This document shows, piece by piece, positions 4,519 to 44,476 of a stretch of 64,000 bases of DNA. The first letter of the stretch is position 1. Each line of letters begins with the position of its first letter. Position numbers and translations under genes: made by a program. The DNA comes from Amorphoplanes digitatis (GTDB taxonomy: Bacteria > Actinomycetota > Actinomycetes > Mycobacteriales > Micromonosporaceae), in assembly GCF_014205335.1 (NCBI RefSeq), contig NZ_JACHNH010000001.1:2226501-2290500 (forward strand), given 5' to 3'. The notes below the pieces were generated by a model. The model had not been told where the DNA came from. It did not search any database and saw only the letters and a list, made by a program, of their open reading frames with translations.

Positions 4519-7500
4519 GAGCCGATCGCGATCGTCGGGATGAGCTGCCGGTACCCGGGCGGGGTCCGGTCGCCCGAGGACCTGTGGCGGCTGCTGATCG
4601 ACGGCGGCGACGCCATCGGCGGGTTCCCGGACGACCGCGGCTGGGACCTGGGCGCCCTGCGCGAGGCGGGGGTGGACGCCCGCGGCACGCAGGTCAGCCA
4701 GGAGGGCGGCTTCCTGGACGGCGTGTCCGGCTTCGACGCCGGTTTCTTCGGCATCTCGCCGCGCGAGGTGGTCACCATGGACCCGCAGCAGCGGCTGTTG
4801 CTGGAGACGTCCTGGGAGGCCTTCGAGTCGGCCGGCATCGACCCGGCGTCGTTGCGGCGCAGCCCGACCGGCGTCTACGTGGGCACCAACGGGCAGGACT
4901 ACGCGTACCTGCTGGTCCGCGACGTCGGCGACGCCACCGGCGACATCGGCACCGGCATCGCGGCCGGCGCGGTCTCCGGCCGGGTGTCCTACACCCTGGG
5001 CCTGGAGGGGCCGTCGCTGACCGTGGACACGGCGTGCTCGTCGTCGCTGGTCGCGCTGCACCTGGCGGTGCAGGCGCTGCGCAACTCCGAGTGCACCCTG
5101 GCCCTGGCCGGCGGCGTGAACGTGATGTCGACCCCGGGTTCCCTGATGGAGTTCAGCCGGCAGGGCGGCCTGGCCCGCGACGGGCGCTGCAAGGCCTACG
5201 CGGACGGCGCGGACGGCACCGGCTGGGCCGAGGGCATCGGCCTGCTGGTATTGGAGCGGCTCTCCGACGCCGAGCGCAACGGGCACGAGGTCCTCGCGGT
5301 GATCCGCGGATCGGCGGTCAACTCCGACGGCGCCTCCAACGGGTTCACCGCGCCGAACGGGCCCGCGCAGCAGCGCGCGATCCAGCAGGCGCTGCGCAGC
5401 GCCGGACTGCGGCCGGCCGACGTCGACGTGGTCGAGGGGCACGGCACCGGTACCCCGCTCGGCGACCCGATCGAGGCGAACGCGCTGCTGGCCGCGTACG
5501 GCCAGAACCGGGACGTGCCGCTGCTGCTCGGCTCGATCAAGTCGAACATCGGGCACACCCAGGCGGCCGCCGGCGTCGCCGGCGTGATCAAGATGGTGCT
5601 CGCCCTGCGGCACGGCGTGGTACCGGCGACCCTGCACGCGGCGCGGCCGTCGTCCCGGGTGAACTGGGCGTCCGGCGCGGTGCGGCTGGCCACCGCCGCG
5701 ACGCCGCTGCCCCGGCACGACCGGCCGTGGCGGGCGGGTGTCTCCTCGTTCGGCATCAGCGGCACCAACGCGCACGTCATCGTCGAGCAGGTGAGCGCCG
5801 AGACGCCCGCGCCGTCGGCGCCGGCGATCGTCCCGCTTCCGGTGTCCGCGCGTACCGCGGCCGCCCTTGAGGCGCAGATCGCGGCCGTGCGCGCCGTCGA
5901 CGCCTCGTCGGTGGACGTGGGGTTCTCGCTCGGCCGGCGTACCGCGTTCCCGTACCGGGCCGCGCTGATCGGCGACGCGGTCGTCCGCGGCGAGGCCGCC
6001 GTCCGCACCGTCGGCCTGGTCTTCTCCGGGCAGGGCTCGCAGCACGCCGGGATGGGACGCGGCCTGTACGCGCGGTTCCCGGTCTTCCGGGACGCCTTCG
6101 ACGCGGCGAGCGCGCACCTGAACGTCGACTGGGACGACCTCGATCAGACCGGCAACGCCCAGCCGGCCATCTTCGCCGTCGAAGTCGCCCTGTACCGGCT
6201 CCTCGAGTCGTGGGGGGTGCGTCCGGCGATCCTCGGCGGCCACTCCGTCGGCGAGATCACCGCCGCGCACGTCGCCGGGGTCCTGTCCCTTCAGGACGCG
6301 TGTGCGCTGATCACCGCGCGTGCCCGGCTGATGGCCGCGCTGCCCGCGGGCGGTGCGATGATCGCCGTGCGGGCCGACCCGTCGTCGGTGGAGCCCGCCG
6401 ACGGCGTCTCGGTCGCGGCGATCAACGGCCCCGACTCCGTCGTCCTTTCCGGTACGGAGGCCGCGGTGGCGGCCGCGGCGTCCCGTTTCGGGCGCAGCCG
6501 GCGCCTCAACGTCAGCCACGCGTTCCACTCCGCGTTGATGGATCCGATGCTGGCGGACTTCCGCGCCGCCCTCGCCGGGATCGCGTTCCATCGGCCGGCC
6601 ACGCCGCTGGTCTCGAACGTCACCGGCCGGGTCGAGACCGACCTGTTCACCGACCCGGGGTACTGGGTGCGGCACGTCCGCGAGACGGTCCGGTTCGCCG
6701 ACGGCATCGAGGCCATGCGCGCGGCGGGTGTCGACACCTTCGTCGAGGCCGGGCCCGACTCGGTGCTCGCCTCGCTGATCGACGCCGACGTCGTGGTGCC
6801 GACGCTGCGCCGCGACCGCGACGAGCAGACCGCCGCCGCGATCGCGATCGGGCGGCTCTGGACCGCGGGCGTCCCGGTGGACCTGAGCCCTTGGTTCGCC
6901 GGCGGCCACCGGGTGACCCTGCCGACGTACGCGTTCCAGCACGAGCACTACTGGCCCGCACCGGCGGGAGCCGCCGACGTGGCCTCGGCCGGGCTCACCG
7001 CCGCCCGGCACCCGCTGCTCAGCGCCGCGGTCGCCCTGGCCGGCACCGACGAGACGGTCTTCACCGGCCTCGTACCCGCCCTGCGCGACACCGCCTGGCT
7101 GGAGCTCGCCTTCCGGGCCGGCGACGAGGTCGGCATGCCGCACGTGCGCGACCTCGAGATCACCGCCGCGCTGGACGGGCCGGCCGCGATTCAGGTCCGC
7201 GTCGGCGCGGCCGTCGACGGCCGCCGGCCGATCACGTGCTCGTCGCGGGTGGCCGGCGGCGAGTGGGTCCGCAACGCGCACGGCACCCTGGACGACCACC
7301 GCAGCGGCGCCCTGCCGGCCGGCGACGACACCGCCGAGTTCACCGTCGCTGAGCCCGGGACGTACGGCGTCAGCCCCGACCTGCTCGACCAGCTCTTCGC
7401 CGGCGACCGGCGACCGATCGCCTGGCGCGACGTCACGCTGCACGCCTCGGCCGCCACCACGATCCACGCCCGGATCACCCCGACCGGCGACGACACCGTG

Positions 7501-10500: not shown

Positions 10501-13500
10501 ACCCGGGCCGCCCTGCCGCACCGCGCGGTGCTGGCCGGCGACACGGTCACTCGGGGGGTGGCCGCCGATCACACGGTCGGCGTGATGTTCTCCGGTCAGG
10601 GTTCGCAGCGCGCCGGGATGGGCCGGGGCCTGTATAGGCGGTTCCCGGTGTTCGCTGCGGCGTTCGACGCGGCGGCCGCGTACCTGGGTGATGTCGACTG
10701 GGACGACCTGGATCAGACGGGCAACGCTCAGCCGGCGATCTTCGCGGTCGAGGTCGCGTTGTATCGGCTGCTGGAGTCGTGGGGCGTGCGCCCGGACGTC
10801 GTGGGCGGGCATTCGGTGGGTGAGATCACGGCCGCGCACGTCGCCGGGGTCCTGTCCCTGAAGGACGCGTGCACCCTGATCGCGGCGCGCGCCCGGCTGA
10901 TGGCCGCCCTGCCCGCCGGCGGCGCCATGATCGCCGTTCAGGCCTGCGAGGCCGACGTCGCGCCCGGCGACGGCGTGTCGATCGCGGCGGTAAACGGCCC
11001 GGACGCCGTCGTCCTGTCGGGGGAGACGGCGGCGGTCGAGGCGGCCGCCGCGCGCTTCGCGCGCACCAGGCGGCTCACCGTCAGCCACGCCTTCCACTCC
11101 GCGCTGATGGACCCGATGCTGGACGCCTTCCGCGAGGTCGCGCGGGGGCTGACGTTCCACGAGCCGACCCTGCCGATGGTCTCCAACGTGACCGGCGGGC
11201 CGGTCACGGCAAGCCTGGTCACCGACCCCGACTACTGGGTACGGCACGTGCGCGGCACGGTCCGCTTCGCCGACGGCGTGGCGGCGATGCGCGGCCTCGG
11301 CGTCGACACGTTCGTCGAGGCCGGGCCCGACTCGGTCCTCGCGTCGCTGATCGAGGCCGACATTGTGGTGCCGACGCTGCGCCGCGACCGCGACGAGGCC
11401 GACGCGATGCTGGCCGCCGCGGCAGCCCTGCACGTGAACGGCGTCGACATCGACTGGACACCCTGGTATCCGGGCGCCCGCCGGATCGCCCTGCCCACCT
11501 ACGCGTTCCAGCACGAGCGCTACTGGCCGCGCCCCGCCTCCACCGGCGGCGACGTCACCTCGGTCGGCCAGAGCGCCGCACATCACCCGCTGCTCGGCGC
11601 GGCGGTGCCGGTGGCCGGCGCGGACGAGGTCATCCTCACCGGCCTGCTCTCGCTGCGGGTGCACCCCTGGCTCGCCGAGCACGAGACGGTACCCGGCGCC
11701 ACCTGGCTGGAGCTCGCGCTCCGGGCGGGGGACCAGGTCGGCTGCGACCGCGTCGAACGCCTGGAGATCGGCGCGCCGCTCGCGCTGACCGAGCAGTCCG
11801 CGGTGGCGCTGCAGGTCCGTGTCGGCGAGCCCGGCGACGACGGTGTCCGGCCGGTCGCCGTACACTCCCGCGCCGACGACGGCCCGTGGGTCGAGCGCGC
11901 CCGCGGCGCGTTGGCACCGGACGGCGGCGAACCCGGCGAACTCGGACCCGACCCGGTCGAGGCGACCCTGCCGGACGGCCTGGCCGGCGACGCCGGGTAC
12001 TTCTGCCTGCACCCGGAGCTGCTGTCCGCCCTGCTCGACCCCGACCTCGAGCCCGCCGGGTTCGCAGGCGTCACCCTGCACGCCACCGGCGCCAGCACGC
12101 TGTCGGCCACGCTGACCAGGCGCGCCGCGAACGGCTACCGGATCGCCGCCGCCGACCCGGCCGGCGCGCCGGTGCTCACCGTCGAGTCGGTGACCCTGCG
12201 TGAGCCCGCCGCCGTCTCCGGCGCCGAGGCGCCGCGCGGATCCCTGCTCGACCTGCGCTGGAACGCCGCCGGCACGGCACCCGCCGGACGACGGGTCACC
12301 CTCGCGACCACCCTGGACGACCTGCCCGGTGACGTCGACCTGGTTCTCGCGCCGGTCACCGGGGACACCGGCGACGTAGCCGCCTCCGCGCACGCGCTCA
12401 CCGCCCGCGCCCTGGAACTGGTGCAGCGGTGGCTCGCCACCGACCGGTTCGGCGACGCCAGGCTCGCCTTCGTCACCGACGGCGCGGTCAGCACCGGCGA
12501 CGACGACCCGATCCGCGACGTCGCGGCGGCCGCCGTCTGGGGCCTGGTCCGCGCCGCACAGTCCGAGCACCCGGACCGGTTCCTGCTGGTCGACACCGCC
12601 GCCGGGCTGGACTCGGTGCCAGACGACGAGGCACAGTTCGCGGTCCGCGACGGGGTGACCCTCGTGCCCCGTCTGGCCCGCTGCGACGCGCGCGGATCCG
12701 CCCGGTGGGCGCCGCGCGGCACGGTCCTGATCACCGGCGGTACCGGTGGTCTCGGGTCCGAGCTGGCCCGTCATCTGGCGGCGAAGGGTGTCGACCTGGT
12801 TCTGGTGAGCCGTCGCGGGCCGGATGCTCCCGGCGCCGATCTGCTTCCCGGCCGGGTCGTGGCCTGCGATATGACCGATCGGGCGGCCGTCGACGCTCTG
12901 GTAGCGGGCATCCCGGAGCTGAGCGCGATCGTGCACACCGCGGGTGTGCTGGACGACGGCGTGGTCACCGCGCTGACCCCGCAGCGCCTTGCCGCGGTCC
13001 TGGCGCCGAAGGTGGACGCCGCCTGGAACCTGCACGAGGCGACCCGAGACCGTGGCCTCGACGCGTTCGTGCTGTTCTCGTCGATCTCGGGCGTGATGGG
13101 CAGCGCCGGGCAGGGTAACTACGCGGCCGGCAACGTCTTCCTCGACGCGCTCGCCGGGTACCGGCAGTCGCGGGGCCTGCCCGCGCAGTCGCTGGCCTGG
13201 TCCGCGTGGGCGCCCGGCGCCGGCATGACCGCGACGCTGGGCGACAGCGACCTGAAGCGCGCCTCCTCCGGCATGCCGCCGCTCACCGTCGAGCAGGGAC
13301 TCGCCCTCTTCGACGCCGCCACCGCGGTGCGCGACCGGCCCTACCTGATGCCGGTCAGCATGTCCTCCACCCGGGTCCGGATGCCCGGCGGGGTACCGGC
13401 CGTGCTGCGGGACCTTGTCAGGGGCGCCCGGCGCACGGCGGCGGGCAGCGCCGGGGGAGCGGCCACCCTGGCCGTGCTCACCCAGCACCTGGCCGGGCGC

Positions 13501-13998: not shown

Positions 13999-14136
13999 GT
14001 CGCGTTACTCGCTACCCGGACACGGAAGGTTGCTCGCATGTCCGACGACAGCAAGCTCGTTGACTACCTCAAGTGGGTCACGGCCGACCTGCACGAGACC
14101 CGCCGCCGCCTGGAAGAGGTGGAATCGGGCCGGCAG
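13741..14136 (+). other. Docking pair PKS-B C-terminus / PKS-C N-terminus
   Basis: The PKS-B tail has a helical stretch ([12 protein letters not shown]) and ends in [14 protein letters not shown]. The PKS-C head is [23 protein letters not shown]. The same kind of tail and head recurs at the D/E junction, so this class alone does not exclude cross-pairing (D to C or B to E). Confidence 0.7.
14024..14029 (+). promoter_or_regulatory. Ribosome binding site of PKS-C
   Basis: GGAAGG lies 8 nt before the ATG. The surrounding ACGGAAGGTT is repeated exactly in front of PKS-E. The whole B-C gap is 39 bases and shows no other element. Confidence 0.75.
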
Positions 14137-17100
14137 GAGCCGATCGCGATCGTCGGCATGGCGTGCCGCCTGCCCGGCGGCGTGCACGGCCCGGACGCGC
14201 TGTGGCGGCTGGTCGACGAGGGTCGCGACGGCATCACCCCGTTCCCGGACGACCGCGGCTGGGACGTGGCAGCGCTGGTCGGCGGGGGCGGCAGCGCCAC
14301 CGGCGAGGGCGGCTTCATCGCCGCGGGCGACTTCGACGCCGCCTTCTTCGGCATCTCGCCGCGCGAGGCGGTCGCCATGGACCCGCAGCAGCGGCTGCTG
14401 CTGGAGACCAGCTGGGAGGCGTTCGAGCACGCCGGCATCGACCCGGCGAGCCTGCGCGGCACCCGCACCGGCGTGTTCACCGGCGCGTCCGGCGTCGACT
14501 ACATCGGCGTGGTGATGGGCTCCCGCGAGGACGCCGAGGGCCACGCCACCACCGGCCTCACCGCGAGCGTCATCTCCGGCCGGGTGTCATACGCCCTCGG
14601 GCTGGAGGGCCCCGCGCTGACGGTCGACACAGCGTGCTCGTCGTCGCTGGTCGCGCTGCACCTGGCCGCGCAGGCGCTGCGCAACGGCGAGTGCTCGCTC
14701 GCGCTGGCCGGCGGCGTCACCGTGATGGCGACCCCGATGGGCTTCTCCGGCTTCACCCGGCAGGGCGGCCTGGCCCCGGACGGGCGCTGCAAGGCGTTCG
14801 CCGACGCCGCGGACGGCACAGGCTGGGCCGAGGGCGTCGGTGTGCTGGTCGTCGAGAAGCTCTCCGACGCGAGGAGGAACGGCCACAACGTGCTGGCGGT
14901 GGTCCGGGGTTCGGCGGTCAACTCCGACGGCGCGTCCAACGGGCTGACCGCCCCGAACGGCCCGTCGCAGCAGCGCGTCATCCGCCAGGCCCTCGCGTCG
15001 GCCGGCCTGGCGGCACGGGACGTCGACGTGGTCGAGGCGCACGGCACCGGCACCACGCTCGGTGACCCGATCGAGGCGCAGGCGCTGCTCGCCACGTACG
15101 GGCAGGACCGTGCGACGCCGCTGTACCTGGGCTCGGTCAAGTCCAACATCGGGCACACCCAGGCGGCCGCCGGCGTGGCCGGGGTGATCAAGATGGTCAT
15201 GGCGATGCGCCACCGCACCGTGCCGCGCACCCTGCACGTGGACGCGCCGACCTCCCACGTGGACTGGGAGGCGGGCGCGGTCCGGCTGCTCACCGAACCG
15301 CTGCCGTGGCCCGCGGCCGAACGCCCGGCCCGCGCCGGCGTCTCGTCGTTCGGCATCAGCGGCACCAACGCGCACGTCATCCTCGAGCAGGGTGACACCG
15401 CCGCGTACCGGCCGTCCCCGGCGCCCGCCGTCGCACCCTGGCCGGTCTCGGCCCGCAGCGAGGCGGCGCTGGACGAACAGATCGCCCGGCTGCGCGCGTG
15501 GGTCGCCGAGCGACCCGGGCTCTCCCCGGCCGACGTCGGCCGCTCCCTGGCCGTCTCCCGGGCCCGGATGCCGCACCGCGCCGTGCTCACCGGTGACACG
15601 GTCGTCCGCGGCGTCGCCGCCGGTCGCCGCCTCGGTGTGGTCTTCTCCGGCCAGGGCTCGCAGCGCGCCGGCATGGGCCGGGACCTGTACGAGCGGTTCC
15701 CGGTATACCGCGCGGCCTACGACGAGGTCGCCGCGCACCTCGGCGACCTCGACCGGGGCGACCTGGACCAGACCGGCACCGCGCAGCCGGCCATCTTCGC
15801 CGTCGAAGTCGCCCTCTACCGCCTCCTGGAATCCTGGGGGGTGCGCGCGGACGCGCTCGGCGGCCACTCCGTCGGTGAGATCACCGCCGCGCACGTCGCC
15901 GGCGTGCTCTCCCTGGCGGACGCCTGCACGCTCGTCGGCGCCCGGGCCCGGCTCATGCAGGCGCTGCCGGCCGGCGGCGCGATGATCGCCGTGCGGGCGC
16001 CGGAGAGCGACATCGACCTGCCCGAGGGCGTGTCGATCGCGGCCGTCAACGGCCCGGACTCCGTCGTCCTGTCCGGGCCCCAGGCAGCAGTCGAGGCCGC
16101 GGCGGGCCGCTTCGAGCGCACCCGGCGCCTGACCGTCAGCCACGCCTTCCACTCCGCGCTGATGGAGCCGATGCTGGCCGAGTTCGCCGCCGTCGTCCGC
16201 GGCCTCACCCTCAGCCCGCCGGACCGCGACCTGGTCTCCAACGTCACCGGGCGGATCGAGTCGGACCTGTTCACCGACCCGGACTACTGGGTGCGGCACG
16301 TCCGCGAGACCGTCCGGTTCGCCGACGGCGTGGCGGCGATGCGCGCCGGCGGCGTGGACGCGTTCCTGGAGGCCGGCCCCGACTCGGTCCTCGCATCACT
16401 GATCGAGGCGGACCTGGTGGTGCCGACCCTGCGCAGGGGCCGCGACGAGAACGAGTCGATGCTGGCCGCCGCGACCGCCCTGCACGTCGGCGGCGTCGAC
16501 GTCGACTTCGCCGCCTGGTACCCGGACGCGGGCGCGGTGCCGCTGCCCACCTACGCGTTCGACCACGAGCGCTACTGGCCGCGCCCCGCCGTCGGCGGCG
16601 ACGTCTCCGGTGCCGGCCTGGCCGCCGCACACCACCCGCTGCTCGGCGCGACCGTCTCGGTGGCCGACGCGGACGAGGTCATCCTCACCGGCCTGCTCGA
16701 CCCGCGGGCACAACCCTGGCTCGCCGGCCGCGCCACCCTGCCCGGCGCCGCCTGGCTGGAAATCGCCATCCGCGCCGGCGACCAGGTCGGCTGCGACCAC
16801 GTCCGCATCCTCGACCTCGACGCCGCGCTCGTGCTCGGGGACCGGCCGGTGGCGGTACAGGTCCGGGTGCACGCGCCGGACGCCGACGGCGCCCGCCGGA
16901 TCACCATGCACGCCCGCGCCGACGGCGACAAGTGGTCGCGGCACGCCTCCGGCATCCTGGACAACGCGGCCGGCCGTCCAGCCGACCCGGCCGGCGAGGG
17001 CGCCGAGGTGTCGCTGCGCGAGGAGGACACCGCCGACGCCCAGAGCTACGGGTTGCACCCGGCACTGCTCACCGCGCTGTTCGACGACGACCTCGAGCCG

Positions 17101-20100
17101 GCCTCGTTCAGCGGTGTCGTCCTGCACTCGGCCGGCGCGAACACGCTGCACGCCCGGCTGCGGCGCGCCGGCGACCAGATCCGGATCGCGGCCGTCGACC
17201 CGGCCGACGCGCCGGTGCTCACCATCGACGCGGTCACCGTGCGCGCGCCCCTCGCCGTGGCGGACGGCCGCGCCTACCCCGGCTCCCTGCTCACCCTGCG
17301 GTGGGTGGCGCCGCAAACCGAACCGGTGCCCGGCCGCCCGCGGGAGACCGATCTTGCACTGGTTCGAGTCCACACCGGCGGTGACGGCGGCGTCGTCGCC
17401 CAGACGCACCGGCACACGGCGGTCACGCTGGACACGGTGCAGCGCCGGCTGGCCGGCCCGCGCGACGCGACGCTGGTCTTCGTCACCTGCGGCGCGACCA
17501 CCGGCGCGGACCCGGCGGCCGCCGCGGTCTGGGGCCTGGTCCGATCGGCGCAGACGGAGAACCCCGGCCGGTTCGCCCTGCTGGACGCCGAGACGGACAC
17601 CGAGGTGGACGCCGTCCTGCCGCTGTTGCCCGCCCTGATCGCCGCCGGCGACGAGCAGTTCGTGGTGCGTGACGGCGCACTGCGGGTGGGCCGGCTCGAT
17701 CGCGTGCCCGCCGATGTCAGCACCGGCCCGTCCCCATGGGCCGGTGGCGGCACGGTCCTGATCACCGGCGGCACCGGTGGCCTCGGCTCCGAGCTGGCCC
17801 GTCATCTGGCGGCGAAGGGTGTCGATCTGGTACTGGCCAGCCGTCGCGGTCCGGACGCGCCCGGCGCGGATCAGCTGCCGGGCCGAGTCGTCGCCTGCGA
17901 TCTCACCGACCGGGCCGCCGTCGATACGCTGGTAGCGGGCATCCCGGAGCTGAGCGCGGTGATCCATACCGCCGGTGTGCTGGACGACGCCGTCGTCACC
18001 TCGCTCAACCCGCAGCGTATGGACGCCGTGTTGGCGCCCAAGGTGGACGCCGCCTGGAACCTGCACGAGGCGACCCGGGACCGTGGCCTCGACGCGTTCG
18101 TGCTGTTCTCCTCGATCTCCGGCGTGATGGGCACCGCGGGGCAGGCCAACTACGCGGCCGGCAACGTCTTCCTGGACGCCCTCGCCGCGCACCGCCGCGC
18201 CGCCGGACTGCCCGCACAGTCCCTCGCGTGGTCCGCGTGGGCGCCCGGCGCCGGCATGACCGCGACGCTGGGCGACAACGACCTGAAGCGCGCCTCCTCC
18301 GGCATGCCGCCGCTCACCGTCGAGCAGGGACTCGCCCTCTTCGACGCCGCCACCACCGTCGATGAGCCGTACCTGGTGCCGGTCAGCCTGACCTCCACCG
18401 GCACGCGGCTGCCCGGCGATGTGCCCGCGGTCCTGCGCGGCCTGGTCCGCTCCGGGCGGCGCGCGGCCGCGACGAGCCCGGGCGGCGCGGCGACCATCGC
18501 CGGCATCACCCGGGAACTGCTGTCCCGTACCGGCGCCGAGCGTCACGCGTTCCTGCTGGGCCTGGTCCGCACCGAGGCCGCGGCCGTGCTCGGTCACGCG
18601 GCCGCGGCCGCGGTCGACGCCCGGCGCGAGTTCCGTGACCTCGGTTTCGACTCGCTCACCGCGGTCGAGCTGCGCAACCGACTGGCCGCCGTGAGCGGCC
18701 TGCGCCTGCCGGCCACCATGGTCTTCGACTACCCGACCCCGGAGGCCCTGGCCGGCTTCCTGCTCGGCGAACTGCTCGACGAGCGGCCGGCGGCGGACCT
18801 CCCCGGCCCGGCACCGGCCGGCGCCGGCGACGACGATCCGATCGTCATCGTCGGCATGGCCTGCCGGCTACCCGGCGGCGTCACCTCGCCGGACGAGCTG
18901 TGGGACCTGGTCGCCGGCGGCCGCGACGGGATCACCGGGTTCCCCGCGGACCGCGGCTGGGACCTGGCGACGCTGCGCGACGGTGGCGACGGCGGGCGCG
19001 GCCGCAGCGCCACCGGCCACGGCGGTTTCCTGGAGCGGGTGGCCGACTTCGACGCCGGCTTCTTCGGCATCTCGCCGCGCGAGGCCCTGGCCATGGACCC
19101 GCAGCAGCGCCTGCTGCTCGAGACGAGCTGGGAGGCGTTCGAGCACGCCGGCATCTCCCCGGCCGGCCTGCGCGGCAGCCAGACCGGCGTCTTCGCCGGC
19201 GCGGGCGGGCAGGACTACACGCAGCTGGTGATGAACTCGCGGGAGGACGTCGAGGGTCACGCCAGCACCGGCCTGGCCGCCAGCGTCGTCTCGGGCCGGG
19301 TCTCCTACGTGCTGGGTCTTGAGGGCCCGGCGGTGACCGTGGACACGGCGTGTTCGTCCTCGCTTGTCGCGTTGCACCTGGCCGCGCAGGCGCTGCGGGC
19401 GGGGGAGTGTGACCTGGCCCTGGCCGCCGGCGTCACGGTGATGTCCACGCCGATGGGCTTCTCCGGCTTCACCAAGCAGGGCGGCCTGGCCGAGGACGGG
19501 CGCTGCAAGGCGTTCGCCGACGCCGCAGACGGCACCGGCTGGGCCGAGGGCGTCGGCGTGCTGGTGGTCGAGCGGCTCTCCGACGCGATCGCCAACGGTC
19601 ACGAGATCCTCGCGGTGGTCCGTGGCAGCGCGGTCAACTCCGATGGCGCGTCCAACGGCCTGACCGCCCCGAACGGCCCGTCCCAGCAGCGGGTCATCCG
19701 CCGCGCCCTGCACGCCGCCCGGCTCGCCCCCGGCGACGTGGACGTGGTCGAGGGGCACGGCACCGGTACGACTCTGGGTGATCCGATCGAGGCGCAGGCG
19801 TTGCTGGCGACGTATGGCCGGGATCGGGAGGTTCCGCTGCTGTTGGGCGCGCTGAAGTCGAACATCGGGCACACGCAGGCGGCCTCGGGCGTGGCCGGGG
19901 TCATCAAGATGGTCATGGCGATGCGCCACGGTGTCGTTCCCCGAACGTTGCACGTGGACCGGCCGTCGACGCACGTGGACTGGTCGGCGGGCGCGGTGCG
20001 GTTGGTCACCGAACCGCTGCCGTGGCCGGTGGTGGATCGGCCGTGGCGTGCGGGTGTGTCGTCGTTCGGTATCTCCGGGACGAACGCGCACGTCATCATC

Positions 20101-23100
20101 GAGCAGGCGGCTCCGGCCGAGCTCGCGCCGGCCACGCCGGCACCCGGACCGGTCCCGCTGCCGGTCTCCGCGAAGTCGGCGCGCGCGCTCGACCTGCAGA
20201 TCGAGCGGCTCCAGGCCTGGCTCGCCGCCCGGCCCGACGCCTCGCCCGCCGACCTGGGCCACTCCCTCGCGGTGACCCGGTCACCGTTCGCCCACCGGGC
20301 CGTGCTGACCGGCGACACGATCGTCCGCGGCGAGGCCGCGCCCCGACGCGTCGGCGTGATGTTCTCCGGTCAGGGTTCGCAGCGTGCCGGGATGGGCCGG
20401 GGCCTGTACGCCCGGTTCCCGGTGTTCGCGGCGGCGTTCGACGCGGCGGCCGCGTACCTGGGTGATGTCGACTGGGACGACCTGGATCAGACGGGTAATG
20501 CCCAGCCGGCGATCTTCGCGGTCGAGGTGGCTCTGTACCGGCTGTTGGAGTCGTGGGGTGTCCGGCCGGACGTTGTGGGTGGTCACTCGGTGGGCGAGAT
20601 CGCGGCCGCGCACATCGCCGGGGTTCTCTCCCTGGAGGATGCGTGCACCCTCGTCACGGCGCGGGGCCGGTTGATGCAGGTGCTGCCCGCCGGTGGGGTG
20701 ATGGTCGCGGTGCAGGCCGCGGAGGACGAGATCGTGCTGCCGGCCGGTGTGTCGATCGCGGCGGTGAACGGTCCGGACTCGGTGGTGTTGTCCGGCCTTG
20801 AGGAGCCGGTCATGACGCTGGCGTCGCGTTTCGAGCGGTCCAGGAAGCTCGCGGTGAGCCACGCGTTCCACTCGGCGCTGATGGATCCGATGCTTGCCGA
20901 ATTCGCCGAGGTGGTGCGGGGGCTGGCCTGCCACGAGCCGGCGATTGCGATGGTGTCGACCGTGACCGGAGCGCCGGTCGAGCCCGGCCTGATCACGGAC
21001 CCGGAGTATTGGGTGCGGCATGTGCGGGAGACGGTCCGGTTCGCCGACGGTGTGGCCGCGATGGGCGCGGACGCGGTGGTCGAGGTGGGCCCGGACTCGG
21101 TGCTCTCCGCGTTGATCGACGCCGAGCTGGTGGTGCCGACGCTGCGCCGTGATCGTGAAGAGGACGTCGCGTTGCTGGGTGCGGTGGCGGCGTTGTGGAC
21201 CGCGGGTGTGGAGCTCGATCTGGGTGGCTGGTTCCCGGGTGCGCGGCGGGTGCCGCTGCCCACCTACGCCTTCGACCACCGGCGCTACTGGCCCGAGCCG
21301 CGCGAACGCCCCCGCGACGAGATGGACGCCGAGTTCTGGGCCACCGTCGAGAACGCCGACCTGCGCACCCTCGCCGACGCCATGGCCGTCGACACCGACG
21401 CCCTCGGCCGGGTGCTGCCCGCTCTCGCCACCTGGCGCCGCCACCGGCGCGACCAGTCCCTGCTCGACACGCTGCGCTTCCACGAGGCCTGGCGGCCGCT
21501 CGCCGGCCGCACCGCCGGATCCGCCGCCGGCGCCTGGATCGTCGTGGGCGACGCCGCCGACGTCGCCGCCGCGCTGGGCGGAACCAGCCTGACCCACCCG
21601 GCCGCCGACCGGGCGGCCCTCGCCGCCCAGCTGCGCGAGGTGACCGGCGAACCGGCCGGCATCGTCTCCGTGCTCGCCGCCGGCGACGATCCGGTCGGCG
21701 CCAACCTGGTGCTGCTCCAGGCCCTGCAGGACGCCGGCATCGCGGCCCCGCTGTGGTGCGTCACCCGCGAGGCCGCCGGTATCGGCGAAACCCCGGCCGA
21801 CCCGGCGCAGGCGGCCGTGTGGGGCCTCGGCCGGGTCGCCGCCCTCGAATACCCGCAGCACTGGGGCGGCATGATCGACCTGCCCGCCACCCTCGACGAC
21901 GCCTCCGCGGGACACCTGCGCGCGGCGCTCGCCGGCACCGACGGCGAGGACCAGCTCGCCGTGCGCCCGGACGGCGTGCTCGCCCGCCGCCTCACCCCGG
22001 CCCCGGCCGGGCCCGCCGACGCGGGCTGGCGTCCACGCGGCACCGTCCTGGTCACCGGCGGCACCGGCGGCCGCGGCTCGCACGTCGCCCGCTGGTTGGC
22101 CGAACACGGCGCCGCGAGGCTGGTGCTGCTCAGCCGCCGCGGACCCGGCGCACCCGGCGTGCCCGCCCTCGAGGCGGAGCTGCGGGCGCTGGGCGCCGAC
22201 GTCCGCGTGATCGCGGGTGATGCCGGCGACCGGGACACGCTCGCCGCGCTGCTCGCCGAGCCCGGCCTGACCGCCGTGGTGCACGCCGCCTCCGACGTGG
22301 ACGACGGTGTGCTCGGCGACCTCACCGCGGCGCGTTTCGCGGCGGTCGCCGCGGCCCGGGTGCGACCCGCGCTGCTGCTCGACGAGCTCACCGCCGGCCT
22401 CGACCTCGACGCGTTCGTGCTGTTCTCCTCGGTCGCCGGCAGCGTCGGCAGCCCCGGACGGGCCACCGGCGCAGCGGCCGGCGCCGCCCTCGACGCGATC
22501 GCGCAGCGCCGGCACGCCCGCGGCCTGCCGGCCACCTCGATGTCCTGGGGCGCCTGGATGGGCGAGCAGGACGGCCCCGCCGCGCGGGCCGGCACCCCGC
22601 TGCCCGCGGTGCACCCGGACCTGGCCGTCGCCGCGATGCGGCAGGCGGTCACCGCGGCCGAGCCCCTGCTGACCGTCCTCGACCTGGCGCAGGCCGACAT
22701 CCTGGACTCGCTCGTCGGGCTCCGCGGCAACGCCGCGCTGCGCGAACTGCCGCGGGCCGGGGAGGCCGTCGAGGCCGCCATCGTGGCCCGCCTGCAGACC
22801 GCGACGGCGACCGGCCGGCTGCGCGAGCGGCTGCTGCCGATGGCCGCCGATGGCCGCGACGCCCTGGTGCTCGACCTGGTGCGTGCCGAGGCCGCCGCGG
22901 TGCTCGCGCACGGCTCACCGGAGGCGGTCGGCCCCAGGGCGGAGTTCCGCGACCTCGGCTTCGACTCGCTCACCGCGGTGGAGCTGCGCAACCGGCTCTC
23001 CGCCGTCACCGGGCTGCGGCTGAGCGCCACCATGGTCTACGACTACCCGACGCCGACCGCCCTGGCCGGGTACCTGCTCGCCGAGATCCTCGGCACGGAG

Positions 23101-26100
23101 CCGGAAGCGGTCGTCCCGCTCGGCGCGACCCGGGGCACCTCCGCCGATCCGATCGTCATCGTCGGCATGGCCTGCCGATTGCCCGGCGGCGTGCAGTCGC
23201 CGGACGACCTCTGGCGCCTGGTCGCGGGGGAGCGCGACGGCATCAGCGCGTTCCCCACCGACCGCGGCTGGGACCTGCACAAGCTGGCCGCCGGCGGCGC
23301 GGACGGCCAGGGCCGCAGCGCCTCGCTCGAGGGCGGCTTCCTGTCCGGCCTCGCCGACTTCGACGCGGCCTTCTTCGGCATCTCACCACGCGAGGCGATG
23401 GCCATGGACCCGCAGCAGCGCCTGCTGCTGGAGACCTCCTGGGAGGCGTTCGAGTCGGCCGGCATCGATCCCGCGACCCTGGCCGGCAGCCCGACCGGCG
23501 TCTTCATGGGCACCAACGGCCTGGACTACTCCACGCTCATCGCACAGTCCCGCGAGGACGTCGGCAGTCTCTCCGGCACCGGGCTGGCGAGCAGCGTCAT
23601 CTCCGGCCGGCTGTCATACAACTTCGGGCTCGAGGGCCCGTCCTTCACCGTCGACACGGCCTGCTCGTCGTCGCTGGTGGCGCTGCACTCCGCCGTCGCG
23701 GCGCTGCGCAACTCCGAGTGCTCGCTGGCCCTCGCCGGCGGTGTCACCGTCATGGCCACGCCGGTCAGCTTCACCGGCTTCAGCGTCGACGGTGGCCTGT
23801 CCGCTGACGGGCGGTGCAAGTCCTACTCGGACGCGGCCGACGGCACCAGCTGGGCCGAGGGCGTCGGCGTGCTGGTCGTGGAGCGGCAGTCCGACGCCAT
23901 CGCCAACGGCCACGAGATCCTCGCCGTCGTACGCGGCACCGCGGTCAACTCCGACGGCGCCTCGAACGGCATCACCGCCCCGAACGGCCCCTCCCAGCAG
24001 CGGGTCATCCGCCAGGCGCTCGCGTCGGCCGGCCTGACCTTCGCGGACGTGGACGTGGTCGAGGGACACGGCACCGGCACCCCGCTCGGCGACCCCATCG
24101 AGGCGCAGGCGCTGCTGGCCACGTACGGCCGGGACCGGGACGTTCCGCTGCTGCTCGGGTCGATCAAGTCGAACATCGGGCACACCCAGGCCGCGTCCGG
24201 CGTCGCCGGGATCATCAAGATGGTCATGGCGATGCGGCACGCGCTGGTGCCGCGCTCGCTGCACCTCGCCGAGCCGTCCTCGCACGTCGACTGGCAGGCG
24301 GGCAACATCCGGCTGCTGCGGGAGCCGGCCGCCTGGCCACACACCGACCGGCCGTGGCGCGCGGGCGTCTCCTCGTTCGGTATCTCCGGTACCAACACCC
24401 ACGTGATCCTCGAGCAGGCGCCGGCCGCAGCTCCGGCGACTCCGGCGGCGGCAGCGGACATCAGGCCGGTGCCGCTGGTGGTGTCGGCCAGGTCCGGCCG
24501 CGCCCTTGACGCGCAGCTCGACCGGCTGCGCACCTGGCGCGACGAGCATCCGCACCAGGCGCCGGCCGACGTCGCGTTCTCGCTCACCGGCCGCACGCCG
24601 TTCGCGCGGCGTGCGGTCCTCGACGCCGACGGCACCGAGCTGGCCCGCGGCACCGCCGGCCCGCACCGGATCGGTGTGATGTTCTCCGGTCAGGGTTCGC
24701 AGCGTGCCGGGATGGGCCGGGGCCTGTATGAGCGGTTCCCCGGGTTCGCTGCGGCGTTCGACGCGGTGACCGCGCATCTGGGTGATGTCGACTGGGATGA
24801 CCTGGACCAGACGGGTAACGCCCAGCCGGCGATTTTCGCGGTCGAGGTGGCTCTGTACCGGCTGTTGGAGTCGTGGGGTGTTCGGCCGGACATCGTGGGT
24901 GGTCATTCGGTGGGTGAGATCGCGGCTGCGCATGTCGCGGGCGTGCTGTCGCTGGAGGACGCGTGCGCGTTGGTCGCGGCGCGGGGCCGGTTGATGCAGG
25001 CGCTGCCCGCCGGCGGTGTGATGGTCGCGGTGCAGGCCGGGGAGGACGAGATCGATCTGCCGGCCGGTGTGTCGATCGCGGCGGTGAACGGCCCGGATTC
25101 GGTGGTGTTGTCGGGCCCGGAGGAGCCGGTCCTCGCGTATGCGGCCGGGTTCGAGCGGTCCCGGCGGTTGGCGGTCAGTCATGCGTTCCATTCGTCGTTG
25201 ATGGATCCGATGTTGGATGCCTTCCGCGAGGTGGTGCGGGAGCTGACCTTCCGGGAGCCGGTCATCTCGATGGTGTCCACGATGACCGGGACGGTGGCGG
25301 ATCAGGTGACCGACCCGGAGTACTGGGTGCGGCATGTGCGGGAGACGGTGCGGTTCGCCGACGGTGTGGCGGCGATGGGCGCGGACGCGGTGGTCGAGGT
25401 GGGCCCGGATGCGGTGCTCTCCTCGTTGATCGACGCCGAGCTGGTGGTGCCGACGCTGCGCCGTGATCGTGACGAGGACGTGGCGTTGCTGGGTGCGGTG
25501 GCGGCGTTGTGGACCGCGGGTGTGGAGCTCGATCTGGGTGCATGGTTCCCGGGTGCGCGGCGGGTGCCGCTGCCCACCTACGCCTTCGACCACGAACGCT
25601 TCTGGCCGCGCCCGCTCGCACACTCGGGCGACGTCGGCTCGGTCGGGCTCACCGCCGCCATGCACCCGCTGCTCGGCGCCGCAATGACCCTGGCCGACAC
25701 CGGCGAGGTGGTCTTCACCGGGCTGCTGTCGCTGCGCGTGCACCCGTGGCTGGCCGACCACCGGGTCGCCGGGCAGGTCACGCTGCCCGGCTCCGCCTGG
25801 CTGGAGCTCGCGGTGCGGGCCGGAGACCAGGTCGGCGCGGAACGCGTACAGGATCTGGAGCTGCACGCGCCGCTGGCGATCGGCGGCTCCGCCGCCCTGC
25901 AGGTGCGCGTCGGCGCGCCCGACGCCTCCGGCGTGCGCACGGTGTCGATGCACTCGCGGCCGGAGAACGGCGACGACCCGTGGGTGCTTCACGCCCGGGG
26001 CAGCCTCGCCACCGGCCGGGACCGCATCGACTTCGAGGTGCCGGCCTGGCCGCCCCCGTACGCCACCGAGGCGGACCTGGACGGATTCCACGAGGTGCAC

Positions 26101-29100
26101 GGCCACGGGCCGGCCTTCACCGGCCTGCGCGCGGTCTGGCTGCACGCTGACGAGGCGTACGCCGAGGTCGCCCTCCCCGAGCCGGTGGCCGGCGACGCGC
26201 AGTACTTCGGCGTCCACCCCGCCCTGCTCGCGTCGATCACCCACGTGACCGGGCTGCTCGGCCTCGACGACGAGCTTCAGCCGGGCCGCTGGGGCGGGGT
26301 CACCCTGCACGCGGCCGGCGCCACCACGCTGCGCGCCCGGATCGTGCGGCGGGGCGCCGACCGGGTCGAGATCGCCGCCGTGGACCCGACCGGCGCACCC
26401 GTGCTGTCGGTGCGGGAGCTCACCCTGCACCGGCCGCGCACCGTAGCGGCCGCCGCGCGGCTGCCGCTGTTCCGGATGGACTGGCCGGCCGTGGAGGCGC
26501 CGACCCCGTCGTCCGTCCGGCACGCCGTGCTCGGCGACTCGGTGGCCGAGCTGCCGTCCGACGTCGAGGTGGTCGTGGTGCCGGTGACCGGCGACCTGGC
26601 CGACGTGATCGCCTCCACCCACCGGGTGACCGGGCGGGTGCTCGACGCGGCACAGGCATTCCTCGCGGACACCCGGCTGATGAACGCCCGGATGCTGTTC
26701 GTCACCGACGGCGCAATCGCCGCCGACGAGGGCGAGCCGATCCGGGACGTGCCGGCCGCCGCGGTGTGGGGACTAGTCCGTTCCGCGTACGCGGAGAACC
26801 CCGACCGTTTCCTCATCGTGGACACCGCCGACCCGGCCGCGTTCCTGCCGCTGCTCGCAGGCGTCACCGCCGACGGCGACCAGCAGTTCGCGGTCCGCGG
26901 CGGCGTGGTGAGGGTGGGCCGGATGGCACGCCTCGCCTCGGCCGACGCCCTGCTGCCCCCGGCGGGCGGCGCCTGGCGGCTGGTCCGCCACGGTGACGAC
27001 GTGGCGCTGACCCCGTGCCCCGAGGTGTGGGAGCCGCTGGACGCGTCCATGGTCCGCATCGACGTCTTCGCCGCGGCGCTGGGCCCGGCGCAGCAGGACA
27101 CCGAGGGGCCGCTGGGCCGCACGGTGGCCGGCATCGTCACCGAGGTCGGCGCCGGCCGGTGCGGCTTCAACCCCGGCGACCGGGTGATGGGCCTGGTGGC
27201 CGGCGGCGTGGGCCCGATCGCGGTGGCCGACGCCGGTTCCCTGGTCGCGATGCCGCAGCAGTGGTCCTGGGCCGAGGCGGCGGCCGCCGCCACCGACCCG
27301 GATCCGGCCCGCCCGGCCGTCGTGAACGCCTGGGACGTGCGCCGGGCCCGCGCCGCGCTGCGCACGCCCGCGGCCGGCCCGCTGGTGCTGGAGATGCCCC
27401 GCCGCTGGCACCGGGAGGGCACCGTGCTGATCACCGGCGGCACCGGCGCGCTCGGCCGGCACTTCGCCCGCCGGCTTGTCGCCAACGGCGCACGCAACCT
27501 GCTGCTCACCAGCCGCCGCGGCCCGCACGCGCCGGGCGCGAGCGAGCTGGAGGCAGAGCTGGACGCGCTGGGCGCCTCGGTGCGGATCGTGGCCTGCGAC
27601 CCGGCCGACCGGGAGCAGGCCGCCGCGCTCGTCGCCGGCATCCCGCCGACGCAGCCGCTCACCGCGGTCTTCAACATCGCCGGCGTGCTCGACGACGCGA
27701 TCCTCACCTCGCTGACCCCGCGGCGGATGGAGCGGGTGCTGCGCCCCAAGGTGGACGCGGCGTGGAATCTGCACGAGCTGACCCGCGACATGGGCGTGGC
27801 CGCGTTCGTGTCGTTCTCCTCCGGCGCCGCCATGATGGGCAACCCCGGCCAGGGAAACTACGCCGCGGCGAACGCGTTCCTGGACGCGCTGGCGCACTAC
27901 CGCCAGGGCGAGGGGCTGGCCGGCCTGACCCTCGCCTGGGGGCCGTGGGACGACACGGACGGCATGACCGGCGCGATGACCGACACCGACCTGCAGCGGA
28001 TGCGGGCCAGCGGCATGCCGCCGCTGGGGGTGGACGAGGGCCTCGACCTGTACGACACGGCGATCGGCTCGTACAGCCCGTACGTCGCCCCGCTGGCCAT
28101 GGTCTCGGGCCCCGCCGCCCCAGGTGCGTTCGTGCCGCCGCTGTTCCGCGGCCTGGTCCGGACGGCCCGCCGCGCCGCCGCCACCGCCGAGGCCGGCGGC
28201 GCGGCGCTGACCAGGCAGCTGTCCCGGCTGGACGGCGCCGACCGGGCCCGGATGCTGGTGGACATCGTGCGCACCGAGGCCGCCGCGGTGCTCGGGCACG
28301 CCACGTCCGACGCGGTCGACGCCGAGCGCAACTTCTACGAGCTGGGCTTCGACTCGCTGACCGCGGTGGAGCTGCGCAACCGGCTCAGCGTGGCCACCGG
28401 ACTGCGGCTGCCCGCGACGGTCATCTTCGACAGCAAGACCCCGGCGGAACTGGCCGGCTGGATCCGCGCCGAGCTGGCCACCCAGGAGGGCGCCGACCCG
28501 GACCTGGCCGCGGCGGCCGGCGGCGAGCCGGAACGCGACTCGCTGGAGCGGCTGTTCCTGGACGCGCTCGCCGACGGCAAGGTGCGCGAGGCGCAGCGGA
28601 TGCTGGCCACCCTCGCCGCGCTGCGCCCGGCCTTCGAGTACGCCTCGGAGCTTGAGGACCTGCCGCTGCCGGTGAACCTGGCCGAGGGCGCCGGCTCGCC
28701 GAAGCTGATCTGCATCCCCGCGCCGACCGCGAACTCCGGCCCGCACCAGTACTCCCGGCTGGCCGCGCACTTCCGCGGCGAGAGCGACGTGTCCGCGCTG
28801 CCGCTGATCGGCTTCGCCACCGGCGAGCGACTGCCGGACAACGCCGACGTCGCCGTGCGGGTGATCGCGGAGAGTGCGCTGAGGGCCAGCGACGGCAAGC
28901 CGTTCGTCCTGGTCGGACACTCCTCCGGCGGGTCGCTGGCGTACGCCGCGGCGGGCGTGCTGGAGAGCACCTGGGGCGTGCGGCCCAGCGCGGTCATCCT
29001 GCTGGACACGCTCAGCTTCCAGCACAACGACGACGAGGGCGTCGACTACGGCGGCATGATGCGGCTCAACTTCGCCGGCGGTGGCGACGCCGCCCCGGTG

Positions 29101-29367
29101 CGGCTGACCAACTCCCGGCTGTCCGCGATGGGCCGCTGGATGGTGCTGCTCAACCGGATGGAGGTCGCGCACACCACCGCGCCGGTGCTGTCCATCCGGT
29201 GTACCCGGGAAAGCGTCGCGGGCAGCGTCGCGGACCTCACCCCGATCGTCGACGGCGCGGTCGTCCGGCCGATCGACGCCGACCACCTGTCCCTGGTACG
29301 CGAGGACTCGAAGCAGACCGCCGCCCTGATGCTCCAGTGGCTGGGCGGCCTCGCGGACAAGCCTTAG
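14038..29367 (+). CDS. PKS-C: trimodular type I polyketide synthase with terminal thioesterase
   Basis: This 5109-residue protein starts at the ATG 8 nt after GGAAGG (14024-14029). A short docking helix ([10 protein letters not shown]) leads into the first KS at residue 34. Module C1 is KS-AT-DH(dead)-KR-ACP (Ser1539). Module C2 is KS-AT-KR(dead)-ACP (Ser2977). Module C3 is KS-AT-DH(impaired)-ER(gutted)-KR-ACP (Ser4773), followed by a TE from about residue 4880 with GHSSG (Ser4962), Asp4990 and His5083. All three ATs are malonyl type (HAFH). The protein should carry out the last three extensions and release the chain by macrolactonisation or hydrolysis. It is the only protein in the window with a TE, so it acts last although two more PKS genes follow it. 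Three different kinds of reductive-domain decay occur in one protein. Confidence 0.97.
14137..18790 (+). other. Module C1: KS-AT(malonyl)-DH(dead)-KR-ACP
   Basis: The AT has GHSVG and HAFH. The DH region (about 16626-17250) reads [15 protein letters not shown]: the catalytic His has become Arg, the same four-residue shortening as in B2 is present, and the HPALLD aspartate is Thr (HPALLTALF). The KR keeps LDD, SSISG and ANYAAGN. ACP Ser codon 18652-18654. Predicted outcome: beta-hydroxyl (C7-OH). Confidence 0.9.
19775..20134 (+). repeat. KS repeat shared by modules B2 and C2, copy 2
   Basis: Partner of 10016-10375. The two KS domains also share [18 protein letters not shown] exactly further upstream, at the same offset. 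Confidence 0.93.
20347..21290 (+). repeat. AT repeat shared by modules C2 and C3, copy 1
   Basis: This is the whole AT domain, nearly identical to 24667-25598 in long stretches (offset 4320 at the start, 4314 at the end). The third codon positions are richer in T than in the flanking KS and KR DNA. Confidence 0.88.
23146..28500 (+). other. Module C3: KS-AT(malonyl)-DH(impaired)-ER(gutted)-KR-ACP
   Basis: The KS and AT (HAFH) are intact. The DH (about 25659-26440) keeps [10 protein letters not shown], but the second catalytic residue is lost ([10 protein letters not shown], Ala codon 26230-26232) and the usual Y-G-Y-G-P reads HGHGP. From about 26965 to 27405 lies an ER-derived stretch ([19 protein letters not shown], then [11 protein letters not shown]) with the central nucleotide-binding half deleted. 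The KR core (about 27418-28050) has LDD, SSGAA and GNYAAAN and should be active. ACP Ser codon 28354-28356. The most likely outcome is a C3 hydroxyl; residual dehydration cannot be excluded. Confidence 0.87.
24667..25598 (+). repeat. AT repeat shared by modules C2 and C3, copy 2
   Basis: Partner of 20347-21290. The longest matching stretches include the GCGGTGGCGGCGTTGTGGAC region near the C-terminal end of the AT. Confidence 0.88.
28650..29364 (+). other. Thioesterase (TE) domain, chain release
   Basis: This is the C-terminal alpha/beta-hydrolase domain of PKS-C. It begins near [17 protein letters not shown]. The nucleophile elbow GHSSGG has Ser4962 (codon 28921-28923), 28 residues before an Asp in ILLDTLSF (Asp4990, codon 29005-29007), and the His is in DADHLSLV (His5083, codon 29284-29286). 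The spacing matches the Ser-Asp-His triad of macrolide TEs. It releases the full-length chain, probably as a macrolactone given the polyene-polyol architecture. Confidence 0.93.

Positions 29368-29446: not shown

Positions 29447-44476
<15,030 letters not shown>

Follow-up and report, generated by a model that had tools for sequence, protein, structure and literature searches.

What lies between the two halves of the ketoreductase (KR) in module C3, and does it still act as an enoylreductase (ER)? The module belongs to gene 14038-29367 (gene C), a three-module polyketide synthase (PKS) with a thioesterase (TE) at its end, within the window (the whole 64,000-nucleotide stretch of Amorphoplanes digitatis DNA analysed here). 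The earlier note had placed an ER-like N-terminal piece between the KR halves, joined directly to an ER C-terminal piece. Both pieces are there, but a linker of about 11 residues separates them. With a probability of roughly 0.7, we read the segment as a barrel-only pseudo-ER kept as a noncatalytic spacer or scaffold between the KR halves. The features concerned are as follows.

23146..24417, + strand: KS of module C3
24673..25545, + strand: AT of module C3
25663..26433, + strand: DH of module C3, with the His motif present and the catalytic Asp replaced by Ala (10 residues at 26215-26244; motif reading)
26461..26934, + strand: KRs, the structural half of the C3 KR (SpnB_Rossmann, PF22953, 6.5e-12)
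26965..27405, + strand: putative barrel-only pseudo-ER (ER remnant) of module C3, 147 aa (translation, BLAST, intact-ER profile, PDB matches, AlphaFold2)
26965..27291, + strand: kept N-terminal part of the ER substrate-binding (GroES-like) subdomain (profile positions 1-134)
27070..27117, + strand: shortened loop where the NFRDV...MYPG active-site loop is expected (alignment of five orthologues with intact ERs)
27292..27324, + strand: junction linker, about 11 residues in place of about 155 residues of the nucleotide-binding subdomain (profile)
27325..27405, + strand: kept C-terminal ER tail, WDVRRAR helix and last strand (profile positions 293-330)
27418..27969, + strand: KRc, the catalytic half of the C3 KR, with Ser, Tyr, Asn, and Lys motifs present (PF08659, 2.5e-59)
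28261..28476, + strand: ACP of module C3
28666..29364, + strand: thioesterase at the end of gene C
37493..38437, + strand: intact ER of module D2, used as comparator (translation, BLAST)

Pfam matches and alignment place the remnant between KRs and KRc, which is where catalytic PKS ERs sit. The reading frame of gene C runs through it uninterrupted (5109 aa), and 26965-27405 translates to 147 residues, in agreement with the earlier estimate. By BLAST, the remnant matched the D2 ER with an E value of 3e-19 (40% identity over 105 aa). The D2 ER is itself intact and has its nucleotide-binding stretch, as had been claimed, although its proposed start at 37491 is out of frame and moves to 37493. We also built a profile on 13 intact ERs taken from further genomes in the genus, with D2 excluded. 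It matched the remnant with an E value of 1.9e-35 in two pieces, covering positions 1-134 and 293-330 of 332. PDB sequence matches included 8g7w (2e-14) and 3slk (2e-10). The remnant has GIVTEVG at 27130, GDRVMGL at 27175-27195, a 16-residue stretch at 27223-27270, and a 12-residue stretch at 27328-27363. Judged by these matches, the ER likeness of the segment is not a product of chance.

Because the profile match covers only positions 1-134 and 293-330, about 155 residues are gone from the C3 ER. They include the nucleotide-binding stretch (HAxxGGVG; 10 residues), which is present in D2 at 37925-37954 and absent from C3, and its motif is missing from all five orthologues described below. The alignments, the two-piece profile match, and the open frame thus bear out that the ER middle was lost in frame, and no intact Rossmann half appeared in any alignment. 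The active-site loop, a 14-residue stretch in intact ERs, is also affected: it is 6 to 10 residues shorter in the five orthologues and has lost the NFRDV motif, with 16 other residues at its place in C3. On alignment evidence, then, the C3 ER suffered two losses, that of the nucleotide-binding subdomain and that of the active-site loop motif. The earlier observation was correct and somewhat understated, as the shortened loop, the conservation, the Asp-less DH, and the recurrence reported here were absent from it. On the remnant, Pfam returned ADH_N alone, below threshold (17.8 to 20.7 bits against a cut-off of 23.5), and the NCBIfam score was 33.6 bits against a cut-off of 296.8. Therefore, default annotation would leave 26965-27405 as an unnamed linker.

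The kept GroES-like substrate-binding barrel was recognised by sequence and by a predicted model. AlphaFold2 gave a pLDDT of 87.5 and a pTM of 0.89 for KRs-remnant-KRc and, for the remnant alone, a folded GroES-like barrel with a pLDDT of 85.3 and a pTM of 0.81; each input alignment held 14 intact ERs, which may push the model toward the ER fold. The remnant model superposed on 8g7w_B with a Z score of 19.6 (rmsd 1.9, 145 residues) and on 3slk_A, the SpnB ER, with a Z score of 18.5 (rmsd 2.2, all 148 residues, chain range 189-508) in VIA-align, and Foldseek returned the same two structures (5e-9 and 4e-8). Both superpositions covered the two ends of the ER chain and skipped its middle. In MDR proteins the chain of the substrate-binding subdomain is interrupted by the nucleotide-binding one. 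Because the model superposes on both ER ends, the deletion seems to have removed approximately the nucleotide-binding subdomain and joined the ends of the substrate-binding one. The remnant is thus predicted to fold as a GroES-like barrel, in a model that has no cofactor subdomain.

A homologue search for the same deletion, which the earlier note had proposed, found the remnant in 5 of 67 genomes of the genus, our own included. The other four copies are 81, 77, 72, and 67% identical to that of the window, and the carriers include Actinoplanes couchii, Mangrovihabitans endophyticus, and Couchioplanes caeruleus subsp. azureus. A scan of 354 genomes of the family returned the same five at 260 to 277 bits, the next among the matches listed scoring 95. 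The remnants are 145 to 149 residues long, and the distance from GDRV to the KR core is 81 to 84 residues, compared with 231 to 246 in 13 intact ERs parsed alongside (listed below among the weak matches). An assembly error is therefore very unlikely, since five genomes share the remnant with the same short distance. None of 17 matching plasmid records for C3, and none of 4 for G916 (a further carrier, below), covered 80% of the remnant plus the KR start.

Selection on the remnant was gauged from omega (Nei-Gojobori, computed by script). Across five species, omega was 0.42 [0.32-0.56] for the remnant, 0.37 for the DH, 0.33 for KRs, 0.25 for the KR core, and 0.19 for the TE; across four species, it was 0.15 for the KS and 0.20 for the AT. 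For the N segment alone, the five-species values were 0.42 [0.29-0.60] in the remnant and 0.19 [0.12-0.30] in the intact D2 ER, intervals that just touch. The C part of the D2 ER gave 0.56 [0.30-1.19], which is too imprecise for comparison. Differences per site in the remnant were 0.136, 0.112, and 0.237 at codon positions 1, 2, and 3. Purifying selection on the remnant is loosened about twofold, yet it is real. We also followed 109 columns that are each kept in at least 13 of 14 intact ERs, in an alignment that is uncertain past the junction. In the five remnants, 55 of these were gaps in all, 28 were kept in all, 14 were kept in none, and 12 were mixed. Those kept in none include the loop Asn and Phe, and a Glu replaced by Thr; structural Gly, Pro, and hydrophobic positions were retained.

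The neighbouring domains bear on what the module would do. KR catalysis is generally read from Ser, Tyr, Asn, and Lys motifs, and all were seen in the five orthologues. The DH, with motifs defined according to the available parts of PMC6490886, has HPALLA at the position of the catalytic Asp in all five. Because the cofactor subdomain and the active-site motif are missing, the remnant is not expected to bind NADPH or to reduce, and its ER activity is presumably lost. With the ER gutted and no catalytic Asp in the DH, ketoreduction should be the only reductive step left to C3, and the TE would then receive a beta-hydroxyacyl chain.

Other modules of the line have also changed. Eroded DHs were seen in B1 (window 7009-7113), B2 (11644-11730), C1 (16693-16779), and D3 (42263-42349 and 42584-42628); the His motif is lost or shortened in B1, B2, and C1, the Asp is replaced in B2, C1, and D3, and the D3 DH is shortened. 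The DH motifs are complete in D2, E1, E3, and E4, and also in E2 when read by eye. The C2 KR (22447-22500, 11 residues) has neither the catalytic Tyr nor the catalytic Asn, as is also the case in its counterparts in L023 and L027, and should therefore be inactive. Going by these motifs, the assembly line overall shows reductive decay, in the DHs of B1, B2, C1, and D3 and in the KR of C2.

The course of events that we propose begins with a fully reducing DH-ER-KR module. An in-frame deletion, with edges close to the borders of the NADPH-binding subdomain, would have removed this subdomain from the ER and brought together both ends of the substrate-binding subdomain, which is discontinuous in the chain. 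The active-site loop would also have become shorter and lost its motif. What was left is predicted to form the GroES-like barrel normally found next to the KR, and may have been retained between the KR halves as a spacer or scaffold. The scaffold role is an inference, and the relaxed omega of the remnant speaks against it.

Was the ancestor of C3 fully reducing, as the earlier note held to be evident? The ER ends themselves suggest so. Among TE-bearing modules, the nearest relatives of the C3 KR are those of L119 (58% over 224 residues) and L127 (60% over 217), the others reaching at most 54%. These two were also the only ones of 16 fetched stretches with related TEs in which an intact ER was seen, and both are fully reducing. 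Their TEs are 52% (L119) and 49% (L127) identical to the C3 TE; the TE tree does not join C3 to either. In a KR tree whose deep branches are weak, the KRs of the five orthologues formed one clade (100/100), apart from the sister-module KRs of genes B and C, and the KR of L172, from an ER-bearing module, neighboured this clade with support of 91/88. A fully reducing ancestor is therefore likely, though it is short of proven.

We then asked whether other ERs have been cut in this way, using two junction queries: A5, in which the end pieces of ten intact ERs were joined, and A7, built from six gutted junctions. Recurrence rates from these searches are lower bounds, as they come from the matches listed and degenerate cases can be missed. 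In the 67 genomes of the genus, the five known cases were the only full-span rows among the matches listed to A5 (ranks 1, 3, 4, 5, and 13). In a sample of 397 genomes of the order, A5 found, beyond our own genome, at least one case in another family (G361, L168). The contig of this case breaks off immediately before GDRV, which leaves the loop region unreadable, and a contig-end artefact is possible. In a sample of 325 genomes of the class, A7 returned at least three more full-span rows, G916, G708, and G766, which all belong to a single genus in a third family. The first two are nearly identical (KR 98%), while G766 is distinct and has a longer junction.

On the intact-ER profile, the edges of the deletion fall at 134 and 293 in C3, 136 and 298 in G916, 133 and 297 in G708, and 134 and 294 in G361; in G766 the first is at 138 and the second was not found. 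Such shared edges are not independent evidence, because the junction searches favour them by design. The active-site loop, however, lies outside both queries, and yet none of the three readable cases (G916, G708, and G766, which represent two sequence types) has kept it. Joined ER ends, loss of the Rossmann and loop motifs, and retained KR motifs occur together in C3, L004-L007, L199, L200, and L201, although the intact-ER profile did not detect an ER tail in L201. The KR Tyr and Asn are present in G361, G916, G708, and G766. The His and Asp motifs of the DH are both present in G916 and G708; in G766 the Asp motif is present, and the His motif was not found by pattern. As far as these motifs tell, mainly the ER step would be lost in these last three. 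For the G916/G708 pair, omega was 0.65 in the remnant, 0.46 in KRs, and 0.06 in the KR core, values from one pair and without interval.

Several candidates were rejected. Thirteen weak matches to the remnant (L008-L019 and L021; about 36 to 51% identity, some spanning about 135 residues) have the Rossmann motif 62 to 63 residues past GDRV and are intact ERs; this parse left out L020, L022, and L003, the last from our own genome. G539 (L166) and G458 (L164) of the order sample and G012 (L167) of the genus span much of the junction query, and yet their ERs are intact, as is that of G930 (L202). L130 and L133 have long linkers and no ER. With a nine-row joined query that has a long N part (A3), intact ERs ranked first, and among the matches listed there was neither a known gutted ER nor any whole-query match; the query is unsuited, and this result proves nothing. 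One further ER, in G688 (L203, G688:C1:259500-265000), has a degenerate GGVG and has lost about 90 residues of its nucleotide-binding half (profile positions 188-276). It is possibly a half-decayed intermediate.

Placed on the KR tree, the gutted label needs four changes, and the nine rows held together in 0 of 200 bootstrap trees. A single clade of gutted ERs had an AU p of 0.24 (0.17 and 0.157 with fewer rows), so one origin is not rejected; the tree favours several origins without proving them. That barrel-only pseudo-ERs arise repeatedly in actinomycete PKSs, losing the NADPH-binding subdomain and the active-site loop while the barrel stays on to support the adjacent KR structurally, is a view we hold tentatively, at somewhat under even odds.

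Could the remnant instead be dead and unneeded, decaying slowly like the eroded DHs elsewhere in the line? Because selection on it is clearly relaxed, with an omega above that of the intact D2 ER segment and a high value again in G916/G708, slow decay is a possible course, and the eroded DHs of B1, B2, C1, and D3, the C2 KR without its Tyr, and the half-shortened ER of G688 all fit it. Still, an omega well under 1 across five species, the retained structural Gly, Pro, and hydrophobic positions, and a length steady at 145 to 149 residues in five orthologues are not what such a relic would lead one to expect, and we consider it unlikely, though to be taken seriously.

Two other explanations carry much less weight. 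A faulty exchange of reductive domains might have imported only the ends of an ER, with no deletion inside a resident one. The distance of the C3 KR from the sister-module KRs of genes B and C does suggest that the reductive part may be imported, but ends that both fit one subdomain are more simply derived from a resident ER, and L119 and L127 are examples of terminal modules that have related TEs and are fully reducing; we think this origin quite improbable. The barrel might also be a docking place for a separate, trans-acting ER, on the pattern of LovB, whose own ER is inactive and which works with LovC in trans, as described in parts of PMC7870829. However, no enoyl substrate should arise in C3, because the DH Asp is absent in five of five species, and LovC touches the MAT domain in the account seen in that source. 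We give docking hardly any credence.

A spacer or scaffold between the KR halves, our preferred reading, has partial parallels. In SpnB ER-KR (3slk) and the type I modular PKS reducing region 8g7w, a cis-AT PKS ER separates KRs from KRc. Judged from sequence and predicted fold, the C3 remnant has the same module position and the same barrel and C-terminal tail; unlike them, it has neither a nucleotide-binding subdomain nor the NFRDV...MYPG motif. Modular PKSs also contain inactive, point-mutated DH and ER domains, usually near full length, and these resemble C3 in the loss of a reductive step. KRs itself is a comparable case, a reductase fold reduced to a structural piece inside the same module (psi-KR). 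It is general in PKS and FAS, whereas full-span barrel-only ERs are few among the matches listed. The available parts of PMC7870829 term psi-KR "truncated," and they describe the psi-ER of LovB, a fungal highly reducing PKS, as lacking active-site residues and having mainly an architecture-fixing role. Like that psi-ER, the remnant appears to be an inactive-type ER kept in the protein, with active-site and cofactor residues missing; the LovB psi-ER, however, is an MDR-fold dimer with two subdomains, one of which the remnant lacks altogether. We read the barrel-only ER as a variant of the inactive psi-ER.

We found no description of an ER without its nucleotide-binding half in the open-access literature searched. 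Two apparent precedents for a "truncated ER" (PMC6382882 and PMC4644662) read "truncated ery..." in the text seen, and a "partial ER" in PMC5240415 is, in the excerpt available, a PCR fragment. The portions seen of PMC6490886 and PMC5331325 deal with DH motifs and ER stereocontrol only.

If these readings hold, a modular PKS can drop a reductive step by having one folding unit excised and another kept beside a KR with intact motifs. A true scaffold would offer a model from nature of how ER activity can be taken away while the KR is spared, and with repeated origin, the removal of one folding unit would be a natural template when reductive outcomes are engineered. As the remnant recurs in several families, the need for the barrel can be tested directly, and interest would rise if this repeated, structurally sensible cut proved independent. 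The remnant is also an annotation trap, as it falls below the Pfam cut-off, and a looser search would report an ER there and lead to a wrongly predicted product.

Two minor observations concern gene arrangement. In Actinoplanes couchii (G013), the terminal-module orthologue (L025) makes up a 2130-aa open frame by itself and has a docking-like region of its own at the N terminus, in contrast to C3, which closes a three-module gene. About 18.6 kb upstream of the window, at about position 2207869 of G000:C1, there is a 9028-codon open frame with a KR-core match. Therefore, the PKS genes probably continue beyond the window.
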